NCBI RefSeq assembly: GCF_040448685.1
Contig: NZ_CP159290.1
Span: 806,001 to 870,000, forward strand
Source: Cellulosimicrobium sp. ES-005
Lineage (GTDB): Bacteria > Actinomycetota > Actinomycetes > Actinomycetales > Cellulomonadaceae
Length of the DNA stretch: 64,000 bases
Reading direction: 5' to 3'
This document shows, piece after piece, positions 39,042-43,635 of this stretch. The notes beneath the pieces were generated by a model, which did not search any database, had not been told where the DNA came from, and saw only the letters and a program-made list of their open reading frames with translations. The position numbers were made by a program, and so were the translations under genes. Positions within the stretch are counted from its first letter, which is position 1. Each line of letters starts with the position of its first letter.

Positions 39042-42000
39042 GTGTCCCGTCTCGCCCGGCTGGCGCTGGCCAACCGCGCGCTCGTCGCGCTCGCCACGGT
39101 CGCGATCGCGATCTTCGGCGTCATCAGCATGGGGTCGCTCAAGCAGGAGCTCATCCCGAGCCTGCAGATCCCGACCGCCGCCGTCGTCGGCGTCTACCCG
39201 GGCTCGGCCCCGGCGATCGTCGAGCAGCAGGTGACCGTCCCCGTCGAGACGGCGGCGCGCGCCGTCAAGGGCGTGGAGGACGTCACATCGACGTCGTCGA
39301 CCGGCATGTCCGTGACGACGGTGCAGTTCGCCTACGGCACGGACATGGACGCCGCGGCCTCCCAGCTCCAGACGGCGATCACGCGCCTGCAGTCCCAGCT
39401 CCCCGAGGACGTCGAGCCCCAGGTCGTCACGGGGTCGGTGGACGACCTGCCCGTGATCCAGCTCGCCGTGTCCGGCGGAGCCGACGACGCGGCGCTGGCC
39501 GACACCGTCTCGTCGAGCGTCGTCCCGGCGCTCGAGGACGTCGAGGGCGTGCGCAGCGTCGCGGTGAGCGGCATCGCCGACCAGCAGGTGACGGTCGACC
39601 TCGACCCGGCCGCGCTCGCCGCCGCCGGGCTCAGCCCGGCGCAGGTCTCCACGATCCTCCAGGACAACGGGGTCGTGATCCCCGCCGGGACCGTCGCCGA
39701 GGGCGACCGGACCCTCAGCGTGCAGGTCGGCACCGCCGTCACGACCGTCGACGAGCTCGCCGCGCTGCCGCTCGTGTCCCCGACCGCGGCGCCCGGCACC
39801 GCGCCCGTCGCGCTCGGCGACGTCGCGACCGTGACCGCGGGCCCCGAGCCCGCGACGTCGTACTCGCGCCTCGACGGCGAGAACGCGCTCGCGGTCGCGA
39901 TCACCAAGACGCCCGCGGGCAACACGGTCGAGGTGTCGCACGCCGTCCAGGAGGCGATCGACGACCTCTCCGGCGTGCTCGACGCGCAGGACGTGCGGGT
40001 CGACGTCGTGTTCGACCAGGCGCCGTTCATCGAGGAGTCCATCGAGGGCCTCGCGACGGAGGGCCTGCTCGGCCTCCTGTTCGCCGTCGTCGTGATCCTG
40101 CTGTTCCTCGCCTCGCTGCGCTCGACGCTCGTCTCGGCGGTGTCGATCCCGCTGTCGCTGTTCGTGACGTTCATCGTCATGAACGCCACGGGCTACACGC
40201 TGAACATCCTCACGCTCGGCGCCATGACGGTCGCGATCGGCCGCGTGGTCGACGACTCGATCGTCGTCATCGAGAACATCAAGCGGCACCTGTCGTACGG
40301 CGAGGAGAAGGTGGGCGCCATCATCGGCGCCGTCAAGGAGGTCGCGGGCGCGATCACCGCCTCGACCGTGGCGACCGTCGCCGTCTTCCTGCCCATCGCG
40401 CTCGTGGGCGGCATGGTCGGCGAGCTCTTCCGGCCCTTCGCGCTCACCGTCGCCATCGCGATGCTCGCGTCGCTCTTCGTGGCGCTGACGATCGTCCCGG
40501 TCCTCGCGTACTGGTTCATCACGTCCCCGCCCGTCCCGGCGGACCCGGAGGCCGCGCGCCTCGCGGGCGAGCGGGCGCGCGCCGCGGCGGAGGCCAAGGA
40601 GCGCCGCGGTCTGTGGCAGCGCGGGTACGTCCCGACGCTGCGGGCGGCGCTGCGCCACCCGGCGATCACGCTCGGCGTGTCCGTCGCGATCCTCGCCGGG
40701 ACGCTCGCGCTCGTGCCGCGCCTGGAGACCAACTTCCTCGGCGACACCGGCCAGGACACGCTCACCGTCACCGAGTCGTTCGCGCCCGGCACGTCGCTCG
40801 AGGCGCAGGACGCCGCCGCGCGCGACGTGGAGCAGGCGCTCATGGGCGTCGACGGCGTCGCGACCGTGCAGACGACGGTCGGCACAGCGGGCGGCCCCGA
40901 GGCCGCGTTCTTCGGCGGCGGGGGCTCCCCGACGGCGACGTTCGCCGTCACGCTCGACCCGGACGCCGACGCCGTCGCCGCCCAGGAGGACGTGCGCGAC
41001 GCCGTCGCCGGTCTGGGCGGAGACGCGAGCGAGGGCATCGAGGTCGCCGGTGCGGACGCCGCGTTCGGCAGCTCGACGGTCGACCTCGTCGTGCGCGCCC
41101 CCGACACCGAGACCCTCACGGCTGCCGCAGCCGACGTTCAGCAGCTCGCCGAGGACGCCGACGGCGCCGCGCAGGTGACCAACAACCTCGCCTCCGCGCA
41201 GTCCACGGTCCAGGTGACCGTCGACCGCGACGCCGCGGCCGCCGTCGGGCTCACCGAGACCCAGGTCGCCGGGACGGTCGCGGGGACGATGTCTCCCGCG
41301 CCGATCGGCACCGTGAACCTCGGCGACGGTCCGGTCCAGGTCCGCGTCCTCGCGGGCGAGGCCCCGGCGACGGTCGCGGAGCTGGAGCAGGTCGTGCTGC
41401 CCACCGCGGCAGGACCCGTCCCGCTCACGCAGGTCGCCGAGGTCGCGGAGGTCGAGGTCCCCACCTCGATCACCCGGGTCGACGGCGAGCGCAGCGCGAC
41501 GATCTCCGTCACGCCCGCCGGCCAGGACCTCGGCGCGCTCACCGCCGAGCTCACGACCGCGATCGACAGCCTCGACCTGGAGGGCGGGGCGACCGTCGAG
41601 ATCGGTGGCGTCGCGTCCGACCAGGCCGACGCGTTCGCCGACCTCGGGCTCGCGCTGCTCGTCGCGATCCTCATCGTCTACCTCGTCATGGTCGCGACGT
41701 TCCGCAGCCTCCTGCAGCCGTTCATCCTGCTCGTGTCGATCCCGTTCGCCGCGACGGGCGCGCTGCTCCTGCTGCTCGCCACCGCGACGCCGCTCGGCGT
41801 GCCGGCCCTCATCGGCCTGCTCATGCTCGTCGGCATCGTGGTGTCCAACGCGATCGTGCTCATCGACCTCATCAACCAGTACCGCGAGCGCGGCCGGTCG
41901 CTCGACGACGCCGTCATGGAGGGGGCGCGCAAGCGCCTGCGTCCGATCGTCATGACGGCTGCGGCGACGATCTTCGCGCTCACCCCGATGGCGATCGGCA

Positions 42001-42236
42001 TCACCGGCGGCGGGGCGTTCATCTCCCAGCCCCTCGCGCTCGTCGTCATCGGCGGCCTGCTGAGCTCGACGCTGCTGACCCTGGTCGTCGTCCCGGTGCT
42101 CTACACGCTCGCCGAGCGCCGCGGCGAGAAGCGCGCGGCGAAGAAGGCCGCCAAGCAGGAGGCCGCTGCCCAGGCCGAGGCCGACAAGGCCGAGCAGTCC
42201 GAGAAGGCCGCCGCCCAGCCCGTTGCGGAGGCGTAG
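39042..42236 (+). CDS. RND family efflux transporter (AcrB/HAE1-like)
   Basis: 1064 residues. 12 membrane segments with two large periplasm-type loops, as in HAE1 pumps, which is unusual in a Gram-positive. The N-terminal segment is ALANRALVALATVAIAIFGV. Porter-loop motifs include YPGSAPAIVEQQVTVPVETA and DLDPAALAAAGLSPAQVSTI. The central membrane part has LFLASLRSTLVSAVSIPLSL and VAIGRVVDDSIVVIENIKRH, the D-D motif that relays protons in TM4. The C-terminal half repeats LLMLVGIVVSNAIVLIDLIN and the R-x-R-P-I-x-M-T motif as RLRPIVMTAAATI. The tail is Lys/Ala-rich. No outer-membrane partners are near. Start GTG with GGAGG 5 bases upstream; likely controlled by the divergent MarR. Confidence 0.93.
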   Translation: MSRLARLALANRALVALATVAIAIFGVISMGSLKQELIPSLQIPTAAVVGVYPGSAPAIVEQQVTVPVETAARAVKGVEDVTSTSSTGMSVTTVQFAYGTDMDAAASQLQTAITRLQSQLPEDVEPQVVTGSVDDLPVIQLAVSGGADDAALADTVSSSVVPALEDVEGVRSVAVSGIADQQVTVDLDPAALAAAGLSPAQVSTILQDNGVVIPAGTVAEGDRTLSVQVGTAVTTVDELAALPLVSPTAAPGTAPVALGDVATVTAGPEPATSYSRLDGENALAVAITKTPAGNTVEVSHAVQEAIDDLSGVLDAQDVRVDVVFDQAPFIEESIEGLATEGLLGLLFAVVVILLFLASLRSTLVSAVSIPLSLFVTFIVMNATGYTLNILTLGAMTVAIGRVVDDSIVVIENIKRHLSYGEEKVGAIIGAVKEVAGAITASTVATVAVFLPIALVGGMVGELFRPFALTVAIAMLASLFVALTIVPVLAYWFITSPPVPADPEAARLAGERARAAAEAKERRGLWQRGYVPTLRAALRHPAITLGVSVAILAGTLALVPRLETNFLGDTGQDTLTVTESFAPGTSLEAQDAAARDVEQALMGVDGVATVQTTVGTAGGPEAAFFGGGGSPTATFAVTLDPDADAVAAQEDVRDAVAGLGGDASEGIEVAGADAAFGSSTVDLVVRAPDTETLTAAAADVQQLAEDADGAAQVTNNLASAQSTVQVTVDRDAAAAVGLTETQVAGTVAGTMSPAPIGTVNLGDGPVQVRVLAGEAPATVAELEQVVLPTAAGPVPLTQVAEVAEVEVPTSITRVDGERSATISVTPAGQDLGALTAELTTAIDSLDLEGGATVEIGGVASDQADAFADLGLALLVAILIVYLVMVATFRSLLQPFILLVSIPFAATGALLLLLATATPLGVPALIGLLMLVGIVVSNAIVLIDLINQYRERGRSLDDAVMEGARKRLRPIVMTAAATIFALTPMAIGITGGGAFISQPLALVVIGGLLSSTLLTLVVVPVLYTLAERRGEKRAAKKAAKQEAAAQAEADKAEQSEKAAAQPVAEA

Positions 42237-42307
42237 CCCGCCGAGGTAGAGCCCTGGTCTACCGAGGTAGAGGTTAGGTCGGGTTTCAGGCGCGCGGGGT
42301 CGGGTCC

Positions 42308-42422
42308 GCGGTGGGGGTGGGCTCGGTGCTCAGGGCTGCGGCGCCGTCACCCTGGACTGTCGGGCGTGGGTCTTTGGAGCGCCGCTCTGACGCCCCTTCG
42401 CATCCGAGCCCACCCCCACCGC
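42308..42422. repeat. 19-bp perfect inverted repeat
   Basis: GCGGTGGGGGTGGGCTCGG (42308-42326) is the exact reverse complement of 42404-42422. The loop is 77 bases. It lies left of the 21-bp repeat array. Confidence 0.8.
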
Positions 42423-42464
42423 TCGGCCGTCGCCGCACCCTGGCCCGAGCTCGCCCGAGCCAGC

Positions 42465-42590
42465 TCGCCGACGTAGACCCGTGGTCCGCCGAGGTAGGCC
42501 CGTGGTCCGCCGAGGTGGGCCCGTGGTCCGCCGAGGTGGGCCCGTGGTCCGCCGAGGTGGGCCCGTGGTCCGCCGAGGTAGAGGCCTGGT
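42465..42590. repeat. Tandem array of six 21-bp units
   Basis: Units start at 42465 (degenerate), 42486, 42507, 42528, 42549 and 42570. The three central units are identical (CCGCCGAGGTGGGCCCGTGGT); outer units carry AGGTAG variants like the end copies. Units are directly joined, so there are no spacers and it is not a CRISPR. Confidence 0.9.
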
Positions 42591-42624
42591 TCGACGACGT
42601 CCGCTCGCACTGCGTTGCAGCGTC

Positions 42625-42654
42625 GCCGTCGGCCGTCGGCCGACGGCCGACGGC
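42625..42654. repeat. 30-bp perfect palindrome
   Basis: The half-site GCCGTCGGCCGTCGG (42625-42639) is followed with no spacer by its reverse complement (42640-42654). It is itself built from two 7-bp repeats per arm. Confidence 0.85.
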
Positions 42655-42750
42655 CAGATCGCCTGGGAGACGCCGGTTGGCGGCCCTCGGTCGAACCGAC
42701 ACCGCGGGCGGTCGCCCGAGGTGGCCCAAGACCAGGGCGAGACGACGCCG

Positions 42751-42848
42751 GGCGGGGTGGGTGGTGGTGCCGCGTCGTGGTCGGGCCTGGCGGGAGCCGC
42801 GAGGAACGAGCGGCGGATGGTAGACGCGGCACCACCACCCACCCCGCC
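42751..42848. repeat. 26-bp perfect inverted repeat
   Basis: The left arm 42751-42776 (beginning GGCGGGGTGGGTGGTGGTGC) is the exact reverse complement of 42823-42848. The loop is 46 bases. This is one of the longest perfect stems in the window. Confidence 0.85.
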
Positions 42849-42933
42849 ACCCAAGGTGACCAGACCGCCGTCGGGCACGAAACCAGGGCTCTACCTGGGC
42901 GGACCACGCCTCTACCTCGGCGGGCGGACGACC

Positions 42934-43635
42934 TCAGGAGGGGCGGGCCACGCCCGTCTCGTAGGCGAGGACGACGGCCTGGACGCGGTCGCGGAGGCCG
43001 AGCTTGCCGAGGACGCGGCCGACGTGGGTCTTGACGGTCGCCTCGGACAGGACGAAGCGCTCGGCGATCTCGGCGTTCGTCAGGCCCTCGCCGAGCGCCT
43101 CGAAGACCTCGAGCTCGCGCGCCGTGAGCTCGGCGAGGCGGGGGTCGTGCAGGCCGGTCTGGCTCGGCGCGGGAGCGACCGTCCCGTCCTGGGGGAGCTG
43201 CCCGGAGAACATCTCGAGCATGCGGCGCGTGATGCGCGGTGACACCGCGGCGTCGCCGCTCGCGACGGCGCGGATCGCCCCGACGAGCTCGCCCGGCTTG
43301 GCGTCCTTGAGCAGGAACCCGCTCGCGCCGGCGCGCAGGGCGGCGAACGCGTACTCGTCGAGGTCGAACGTCGTGAGGATGATGACCCGCGACTCCGGCT
43401 GGGCCGCGACGATGCGCTCGGTCGCCTCGATGCCGTTGGTGCCGGGCATGCGGACGTCCATGAGCACGACGTCGGGGCGCAGGGCGGCGGCCTGCGCGAT
43501 CCCGGTCACGCCGTCGCCGGCCTCGCCGACGACCTCGATGTCGTCCTCGGCGGCGAGGATCATGCGGAAGCCCATGCGCAGCAGGGCCTGGTCGTCGACG
43601 AGCAGCACCCGGGTCGGTGCGCCGCTGTCCGTCAT
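42934..43635 (-). CDS. NarL/LuxR family response regulator
   Basis: 233 residues. Receiver domain (about 8-125): acidic pocket VLLVDDQ (Asp14, Asp15), phospho-acceptor Asp60 in VLMDVRMPGTNG, Thr in ILTTFD, Lys in FLLKDAKP. The C-terminal LuxR helix-turn-helix is LTARELEVFEALGEGLTNAEIAERF ... SEATVKTHVGRVLGKLGLRDRVQ. It is the last gene of a four-gene set (ABC ATPase, permease, kinase, regulator). Its ATG overlaps the kinase stop (ATGA). It would be phosphorylated by that kinase and probably controls the ABC genes. Confidence 0.95.
   Translation of the reverse strand: MTDSGAPTRVLLVDDQALLRMGFRMILAAEDDIEVVGEAGDGVTGIAQAAALRPDVVLMDVRMPGTNGIEATERIVAAQPESRVIILTTFDLDEYAFAALRAGASGFLLKDAKPGELVGAIRAVASGDAAVSPRITRRMLEMFSGQLPQDGTVAPAPSQTGLHDPRLAELTARELEVFEALGEGLTNAEIAERFVLSEATVKTHVGRVLGKLGLRDRVQAVVLAYETGVARPS

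Follow-up and report, generated by a model that had tools for sequence, protein, structure and literature searches.

A composite block of REP-like repeats at convergent gene ends in Cellulosimicrobium, with a candidate strand-specific structured element

The GTAG REPs are reported to be dispersed repeats located mostly between convergent or tandem genes and beside 3' ends; their TAG serves as a source of stop codons, and some copies are found inside genes, DNA repair genes included (PMC3733652). The Rickettsia palindromic elements (RPE) are palindromic repeats that have inserted, in frame, in unrelated genes (PMC10969869), and REPs can themselves be sites where IS110-family elements insert (PMC11208160). 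A search of literature titles and abstracts found no description of a repeat family in Cellulosimicrobium. In the window, i.e., the whole 64-kb stretch of Cellulosimicrobium DNA analysed here, a repeat block at 42237..42933 fills the gap between convergent genes encoding an RND transporter and a response regulator. The genome consists of one contig of 4.86 Mb, and the RND gene has its best named relatives in the same genus, namely C. cellulans PW (99%) and C. funkei U11 (97%). The block and its flanks are organised as follows:

39042..42236, + strand: RND (AcrB-type) transporter gene (Pfam ACR_tran)
42238..42279, + strand: left terminal pair of 21-bp units, starting one base after the RND stop codon
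42280..42447, + strand: HP1 module, with a perfect outer stem of 17 bp (42310-42326/42404-42420) and a conserved apical part
42465..42590, + strand: tandem array of six 21-bp units
42625..42654, no strand assigned: perfect 15-bp palindrome
42695..42881, + strand: HP2 module
42751..42776, + strand: 5' stem arm of HP2, 26 bp, perfect
42777..42822, + strand: HP2 core, with an inner stem at 42796-42800/42810-42814
42777-42795 and 42815-42822, + strand: internal loop of the HP2 core
42801-42809, + strand: apical loop of the HP2 core, GAGGAACGA
42823..42848, + strand: 3' stem arm of HP2
42882..42923, - strand: right terminal inverted pair of 21-bp units
42934..43635, - strand: LuxR-type response-regulator gene (Pfam Response_reg and GerE)

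The RND stop codon ends at 42236 and a single base separates it from the first 21-bp unit, while 10 bases lie between the last unit and the end of the response-regulator gene (42934), in agreement with the first-pass annotation, which had the block start 1 base after one stop codon and end about 10 bases before the other. Its account of ten units, i.e., two direct, six in tandem and two inverted, likewise holds: all ten were mapped by comparison with four unit variants, allowing up to 5 mismatches to the closest, at 42238 and 42259 (+), at 42465, 42486, 42507, 42528, 42549 and 42570 (+), and at 42882 and 42903 (-), the copies being unequal, with 5 mismatches in the one at 42259. At up to 3 mismatches, the consensus proposed in that annotation matches 5 times within the 64-kb window, never outside the block, and 100 shuffles give no match. 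The unit pairs at the two block ends are inverted relative to each other and constitute the terminal inverted repeats previously noted, a feature of MITEs, and the long perfect hairpins said to lie between them correspond to the 26-bp stem at 42751-42776/42823-42848, the left stem, listed by the repeat search as 33 nt at 82% with a perfect stretch of 17 bp, and the 15-bp palindrome. On either strand, the fold of the whole block is better than those of 20 shuffles (z -11.0 and -10.2). No canonical terminator, i.e., a stem followed by a T tract, occurs in the block, and a CRISPR array is rejected, the array units standing head to tail without spacers.

What did not survive is the view of the block as one element. 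Mapping its pieces on 60 fetched loci resolved a 21-bp unit, HP1 on the left and HP2 on the right, and the block combines at least three modules, each of them dispersed separately. Compared with its own genome, it returns 134 matches: the block itself, a 75% relative that spans almost its whole length, and partial matches, some of which fall inside the block. HP1 and HP2 occur together at 8 places in the genome, window included, in constant order and relative direction; among these 8 aligned copies the six-unit array is present only in the window, whose middle consists of units and the palindrome versus different DNA in the other 7. The array also varies between strains: in L031, which is 99% identical, it counts 4 units instead of 6, and the palindrome there shows a 27-bp gap.

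Taken on its own, the 21-bp unit is a genome-wide repeat tied to gene 3' ends and enriched in the genus. Its 13-nt core has 47 exact copies in the genome (reversed control, 0), 3 to 59 in each of 15 other genomes of the genus and 0 to 5 in 43 genomes outside it, the reversed control giving 0 to 2 anywhere. The 60 own-genome loci contain 57 clusters of units or hairpin modules, 11 of which were set aside as being inside genes or having no called neighbour, neighbouring genes being called by our own codon-usage scorer and not taken from annotation. A stop codon is found at most 25 nt away in 32 of the 46 remaining, intergenic clusters (32/43 of those having a neighbouring 3' end), and in 10 clusters the nearest stop is the TAG inside the unit, in which the tetranucleotide GTAG is present. 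Between tandem genes, 21 of 22 clusters are closer to the 3' end of the upstream gene (p = 1e-5), and a convergent setting is seen in 21/46 clusters compared with 10/53 gene pairs of the window (p = 3e-5). As for structure, neither four single-unit sequences nor a 26-nt GTAG-to-GTAG stretch outdo their shuffles in folding (of 200 mononucleotide shuffles, 29 to 100% fold as low), so hairpins need inverted unit pairs; with a loop of 3-4 nt such pairs form long hairpins, of which there are 11 in the 60 loci, with 17-38 pairs and few mismatches. Read in the opposite direction the unit has an open frame of 7 codons, and it recurs in frame, as 7-residue repeats (DQGSTSA-like), in a molybdopterin oxidoreductase gene read as narG and in an EamA transporter gene. 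In these two genes four and three unit copies, respectively, were detected (L146:1702-1785 and L165:1770-1853).

The unit is also the site of a 1.4-kb IS110-family element (PF01548, PF02371), five copies of which, 99-100% identical, were present in the fetched loci (L115:619-2061; also L113, L123, L125 and L127), all 5/5 at the same point of the 21-bp unit. The leading (5') non-coding end of the element folds better than shuffles (z -3.8) and contains CGAGGTAGAGCCG, a 13-nt piece of the unit. IS110-group elements encode a bridge RNA in that end (PMC11208160), and CGAGGTAGAGCCG is here read as a putative bridge-RNA target guide for the unit.

HP2 is of another nature. Its core of about 46 nt, GUGG(n)nGGGYCUGGCGGGA - inner stem - GAGGnACGA - inner stem - GGAUGGUA, is nearly invariant and is set in arms of 10-34 bp, which can differ almost wholly between copies yet still pair; the 76 distinct HP2 hairpins of the fetched loci have 35 different 12-nt inner arm sequences. 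Twenty sequences with distinct arms were taken, from which L171, L188 and L190, originating from other genomes and aligned out of register, were left out of both the model and the pair count. In the 17 retained, 99.1% of cells are paired and both-side changes are seen in 15/19 pairs; 0/500 shuffles reach such pairing, and sliding the partner destroys it. The covariance analysis proposed at first pass thus shows pairs covarying beyond shuffled and slid controls, as looked for in a structured RNA. In Rfam, the block and its surroundings match no family to E 1, and 12 loci with HP1 or HP2 copies give three matches to E 1, each rejected as an identity for HP2: msiK in L172 is above threshold but about 1.3 kb from HP2 and unrelated, RAGATH-31 in L139 is alone in overlapping HP2, at E 0.82 with 25.7 bits against a gathering threshold of 71.8 and was taken as chance, and MIR949 in L206 is far below the Rfam threshold. 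Separately, Aeromicrobium repeats of a different kind (L077, about 11620 and about 13050, - strand) share the GAGGAACGA apical loop, borne on a stem of 5 bp; GAGGAACGA is perhaps a recognition loop shared by actinobacterial repeats.

Copies of HP2 at orthologous sites are of particular value in that they tell compensation apart from mere copy variety. The gap between ruvC and yebC (Pfam RuvC, TACO1/YebC) has HP2, in one direction, in 15/17 genus genomes and lacks it in 2/17; the 9 distinct arm pairs are 99.4% paired with both-side changes in 10/20 pairs, a level reached by 0/1000 shuffles, the shuffled control being the one applied there. The core at this site is 45, 47, 49 or 50 nt long and is therefore not a conserved reading frame; the differences of 2, 4 and 5 nt dispose of a conserved protein-coding gene, one of the grounds on which the initial interpretation could have fallen. 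Comparison of the window's own junction in relatives, also suggested then, covered the 10 loci with a convergent response regulator at 0-834 bp, 4 of which keep HP2 (L031, L040, L041 and L066), and between L041 and L066 an inner-arm change from C-G to T-A is compensated. By eye, L032, L048, L053 and L072 have a shorter, different hairpin in place of HP2, L059 a hairpin of unit-like sequence, and L039 just 17 bp. Loss of HP2 is tolerated at this junction and at ruvC-yebC. The RND-gap hairpin of L032, L048, L053 and L072 is GCCGAGCAGGTGGTCCTGGCGCGTC and relatives, with a top also closed by GTC/GAC.

HP2 further occurs in frame in linkers of LigD, of a MocR-type regulator and of PriA (L135:1821-1868; L140:1761-1808; L171:1485-1558). 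In the MocR-type regulator it is recognisable by eye, sometimes decayed, in the linkers of 10/14 orthologs, with a fragment in L261 and three more linkers without HP2, and the lengths of the 14 linkers, worked out by hand, differ by multiples of 3. With ligD and priA added to ruvC-yebC, HP2 leans towards DNA repair genes, a tendency reported for REPs too, in numbers that are tiny here.

Which strand is structured can be read from the mismatches in the arms. If the structure were a duplex or a cruciform, every G.T would appear as A.C on the complementary strand, and neither would have an advantage. The strand with the HP2 core shows 19 G.T versus 2 A.C when the penalty for both is 2 (66 distinct arm pairs, 1599 pairs; p = 2e-4), and 32 versus 7 when it is 1 (70 arm pairs, 1840 pairs; p = 7e-5), p values that are optimistic, the HP2 copies being related. 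A count of 27 G.T versus 2 A.C came from a score that favoured G.T and was set aside for the symmetric ones. The ruvC-yebC arms have 8 G.T versus 0 A.C in 198 pairs; the simple unit hairpins, with 0 G.T and 2 A.C in 11, have too few mismatches to serve as a control for this strand comparison. Because G.T exceed A.C on the core strand, one strand carries the HP2 structure, which fits one single strand, i.e., RNA or single-stranded DNA, and not a symmetric cruciform. The direction of HP2 relative to its neighbours is not fixed: among 4 tandem contexts in the own genome it is sense in 2 and antisense in 2. In the ruvC-yebC gap both genes are antisense to the structured strand, and an RNA would therefore need its own promoter. 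The block of the window has 0 sigma70-like promoters in a scan that does not cover GC-rich actinobacterial promoters. This antisense strand, with no promoter found, is the main difficulty in reading HP2 as RNA.

With respect to distribution, the HP2 core pattern at up to 2 mismatches has 24 matches in the genome, where about 30 places contain HP2 whole or in part, in both directions and mostly between genes. At the same setting all 16 of 16 genus genomes have the core, with 2 to 41 copies apiece, as do 4 of 133 further genomes searched, i.e., a few actinobacteria outside the genus. A covariance model finds HP2 in at least 5 of 394 genomes of the class, own included, a lower bound as 12 candidates per genome were scored with strict filters, and in 4 of the 80 named RND-relative loci, all Cellulosimicrobium. 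Such recurrence across genus genomes and in other assemblies dispels two doubts raised at the outset, namely that the block was unique to one assembly or an assembly artefact. Isoptericola sp. BMS4 exhibits two weaker look-alikes of HP2 directly 3' of its RND gene (L043:11351 and 11496); they adjoin masked bases near the RND stop, and the model reported none there at E 0.01.

The family is partly mobile, partly old and fixed. For ten loci the flanks were looked for in four further genomes of the genus, and 17 regions covering six loci were read. The HP2 block is missing from the L111 site in G002, the L116 site in G005 and G002, and the L119 site in G005 and G012; the short sites of L111, L116 and L119 in other genomes have flanks too diverged for a target-site duplication to be read, and no parent element was identified. 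At the L111 site, a gene with a formyl-transferase domain lies between units in place of HP1/HP2 in G009 (L312:723-1238), possibly a gene cassette flanked by inverted units, and HP2 is in the opposite direction in G012 (L315). At the L116 site in G009 (L316, G009:C1:1254150-1255150), a further palindrome sits inside the HP2 core, i.e., a repeat within a repeat. As the L111, L116 and L119 sites differ between genomes, the modules between inverted units turn over, possibly by recombination between dispersed units. The ruvC-yebC site (L133), for its part, has HP2 in all four comparison genomes, and some species have decayed copies (L258, L259). As for a mobiliser, a Y1 transposase/RAYT (PF01797) was found in 1/39 genomes, outside the genus, and in none of the 16 genus genomes, so that a RAYT is rejected in this role; a phage, plasmid or viral origin is likewise rejected, given that, at the sensitivity used, nothing in phages, plasmids or viral contigs matched.

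As a 3'-end repeat this family is ordinary; what is unusual is HP2, a one-strand element whose core is fixed and whose arms are free. We lean towards considering the block a REP-like 3'-gap repeat nest, in which inverted units would serve as 3'-end hairpins and HP2 would act as a + strand RNA. Inverted unit pairs may end or stabilise transcripts as 3'-end hairpins and may also be landing or recombination sites, between which HP1 and HP2 would collect. The RNA of HP2 would be made from the + strand of the window, as a small RNA or a 3' RNA element, and would show its conserved internal loop and GAGG-N-ACGA loop to a partner, probably a protein. At the level of sequence, a near-fixed core combined with matched-pair stem changes suggests an undescribed structured RNA rather than junk. 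The structured RNA envisaged at first pass is hence backed for HP2 by covariation and, on one strand, by G.T outnumbering A.C, a pattern that single-stranded DNA would fit as well. That HP2 could be a new actinobacterial structured-RNA family, spread in the manner of a repeat and retained at given sites throughout the genus, is proposed tentatively, with chances a little below even. If so, HP2 would be a repeat-borne small RNA or a ligand of an RNA-binding protein with many copies per genome, its fixed recognition core carried in free arms and made even antisense to ruvC-yebC.

Other explanations share part of this evidence. RAYTs recognise REPs on one strand, and a one-strand structure is equally expected of a single-stranded DNA substrate; HP2, and perhaps HP1, could as such be a hairpin for an HUH-type or other single-strand transposase, its core kept by copying and not by function. 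We regard this as unlikely: dispersed copies in both directions, presence or absence at L111, L116 and L119, and copies in a few other genera or families, inside genes and, in L316, as a nested insertion, all speak for it, but the own genome and 15 others of the genus have no Y1 transposase, phages, plasmids and viral contigs gave no match at the sensitivity used, copying should carry the arms along, yet these can differ almost wholly, and transposition alone does not explain compensated orthologs across the genus. The miniature mobile element of the first-pass annotation accordingly stands as far as dispersed copies, filled and empty sites and occurrences in few other genera are concerned, and falters on the transposase, sought as Y1 and not found in the 16 genus genomes, and on copies that are old and stay in place. 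Template switching in quasi-palindromes can also yield compensatory arm changes, and HP2 could then be selfish or neutral debris of old palindromic repeats whose arms are kept perfect in this way, with no function. Arms that pair whatever their sequence, the decayed copies L258 and L259, and the lack of HP2 in 2/17 ruvC-yebC gaps and 3/14 MocR linkers, one more linker having a fragment only, agree with such debris; it accounts neither for an unpaired core that hardly varies in distant genomes nor for G.T outnumbering A.C, correction being expected to be symmetric for copies in both directions, and we hold it for quite improbable. Far less credible still are units working as a double-stranded protein-binding array for chromosome organisation, an early suggestion that the many copies over the whole chromosome and the conservation of the 21-bp unit would suit. 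Against it, the clusters stay close to stop codons, a hairpin that tolerates G.T is not needed for a double-stranded site, and HP2 has no replichore strand bias, the 24 copies, counted by hand with the origin assumed at the contig start, being 9 - and 5 + in the first half and 6 - and 4 + in the second.

The function of common REP-like repeats is an old question, for which HP2 has the advantage of being traceable at single orthologous sites through the genus, with natural compensatory mutations. The mismatch pattern moreover names the structured strand, making an RNA role of such repeats directly testable. The family also joins three things reported apart, i.e., 3'-end repeats supplying stop codons, in-frame insertion and an IS110 landing site.

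Set against described systems, the unit resembles GTAG REPs by its GTAG, its location at 3' ends and its TAG used as a stop codon. It differs in that a single 21-bp unit is not the self-complementary unit of 20-40 bp that characterises them, in that the associated RAYT (Y1_Tnp) gene was not found in 16 genus genomes, and in that HP2, whose arms vary freely around a conserved core, is a much larger hairpin. The unit is called REP-like and not REP because it is not a palindrome when single and no RAYT was found in the genus. The likeness to RPE lies in units or HP2 in the open frames of ligD, the MocR-type regulator, priA, the molybdopterin oxidoreductase gene and the EamA transporter; the differences are another lineage and sequence, own-genome HP2 copies lying mostly between genes, and conservation of HP2 at orthologous sites with compensatory arms. 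The IS110-family element found here in units is like IS621 in REPs (PMC11208160); in terms of IS110 targeting, units are the targets, and HP1 and HP2 are not part of the IS. With the structured RNAs of Rfam, among which no family scored above threshold for it, HP2 shares covarying stems around a conserved internal loop. Judged on sequence comparisons, the best reading is that the repeat family would belong with REP/RPE-like palindromic repeats and that HP2 would be a new strand-specific structured element among them.
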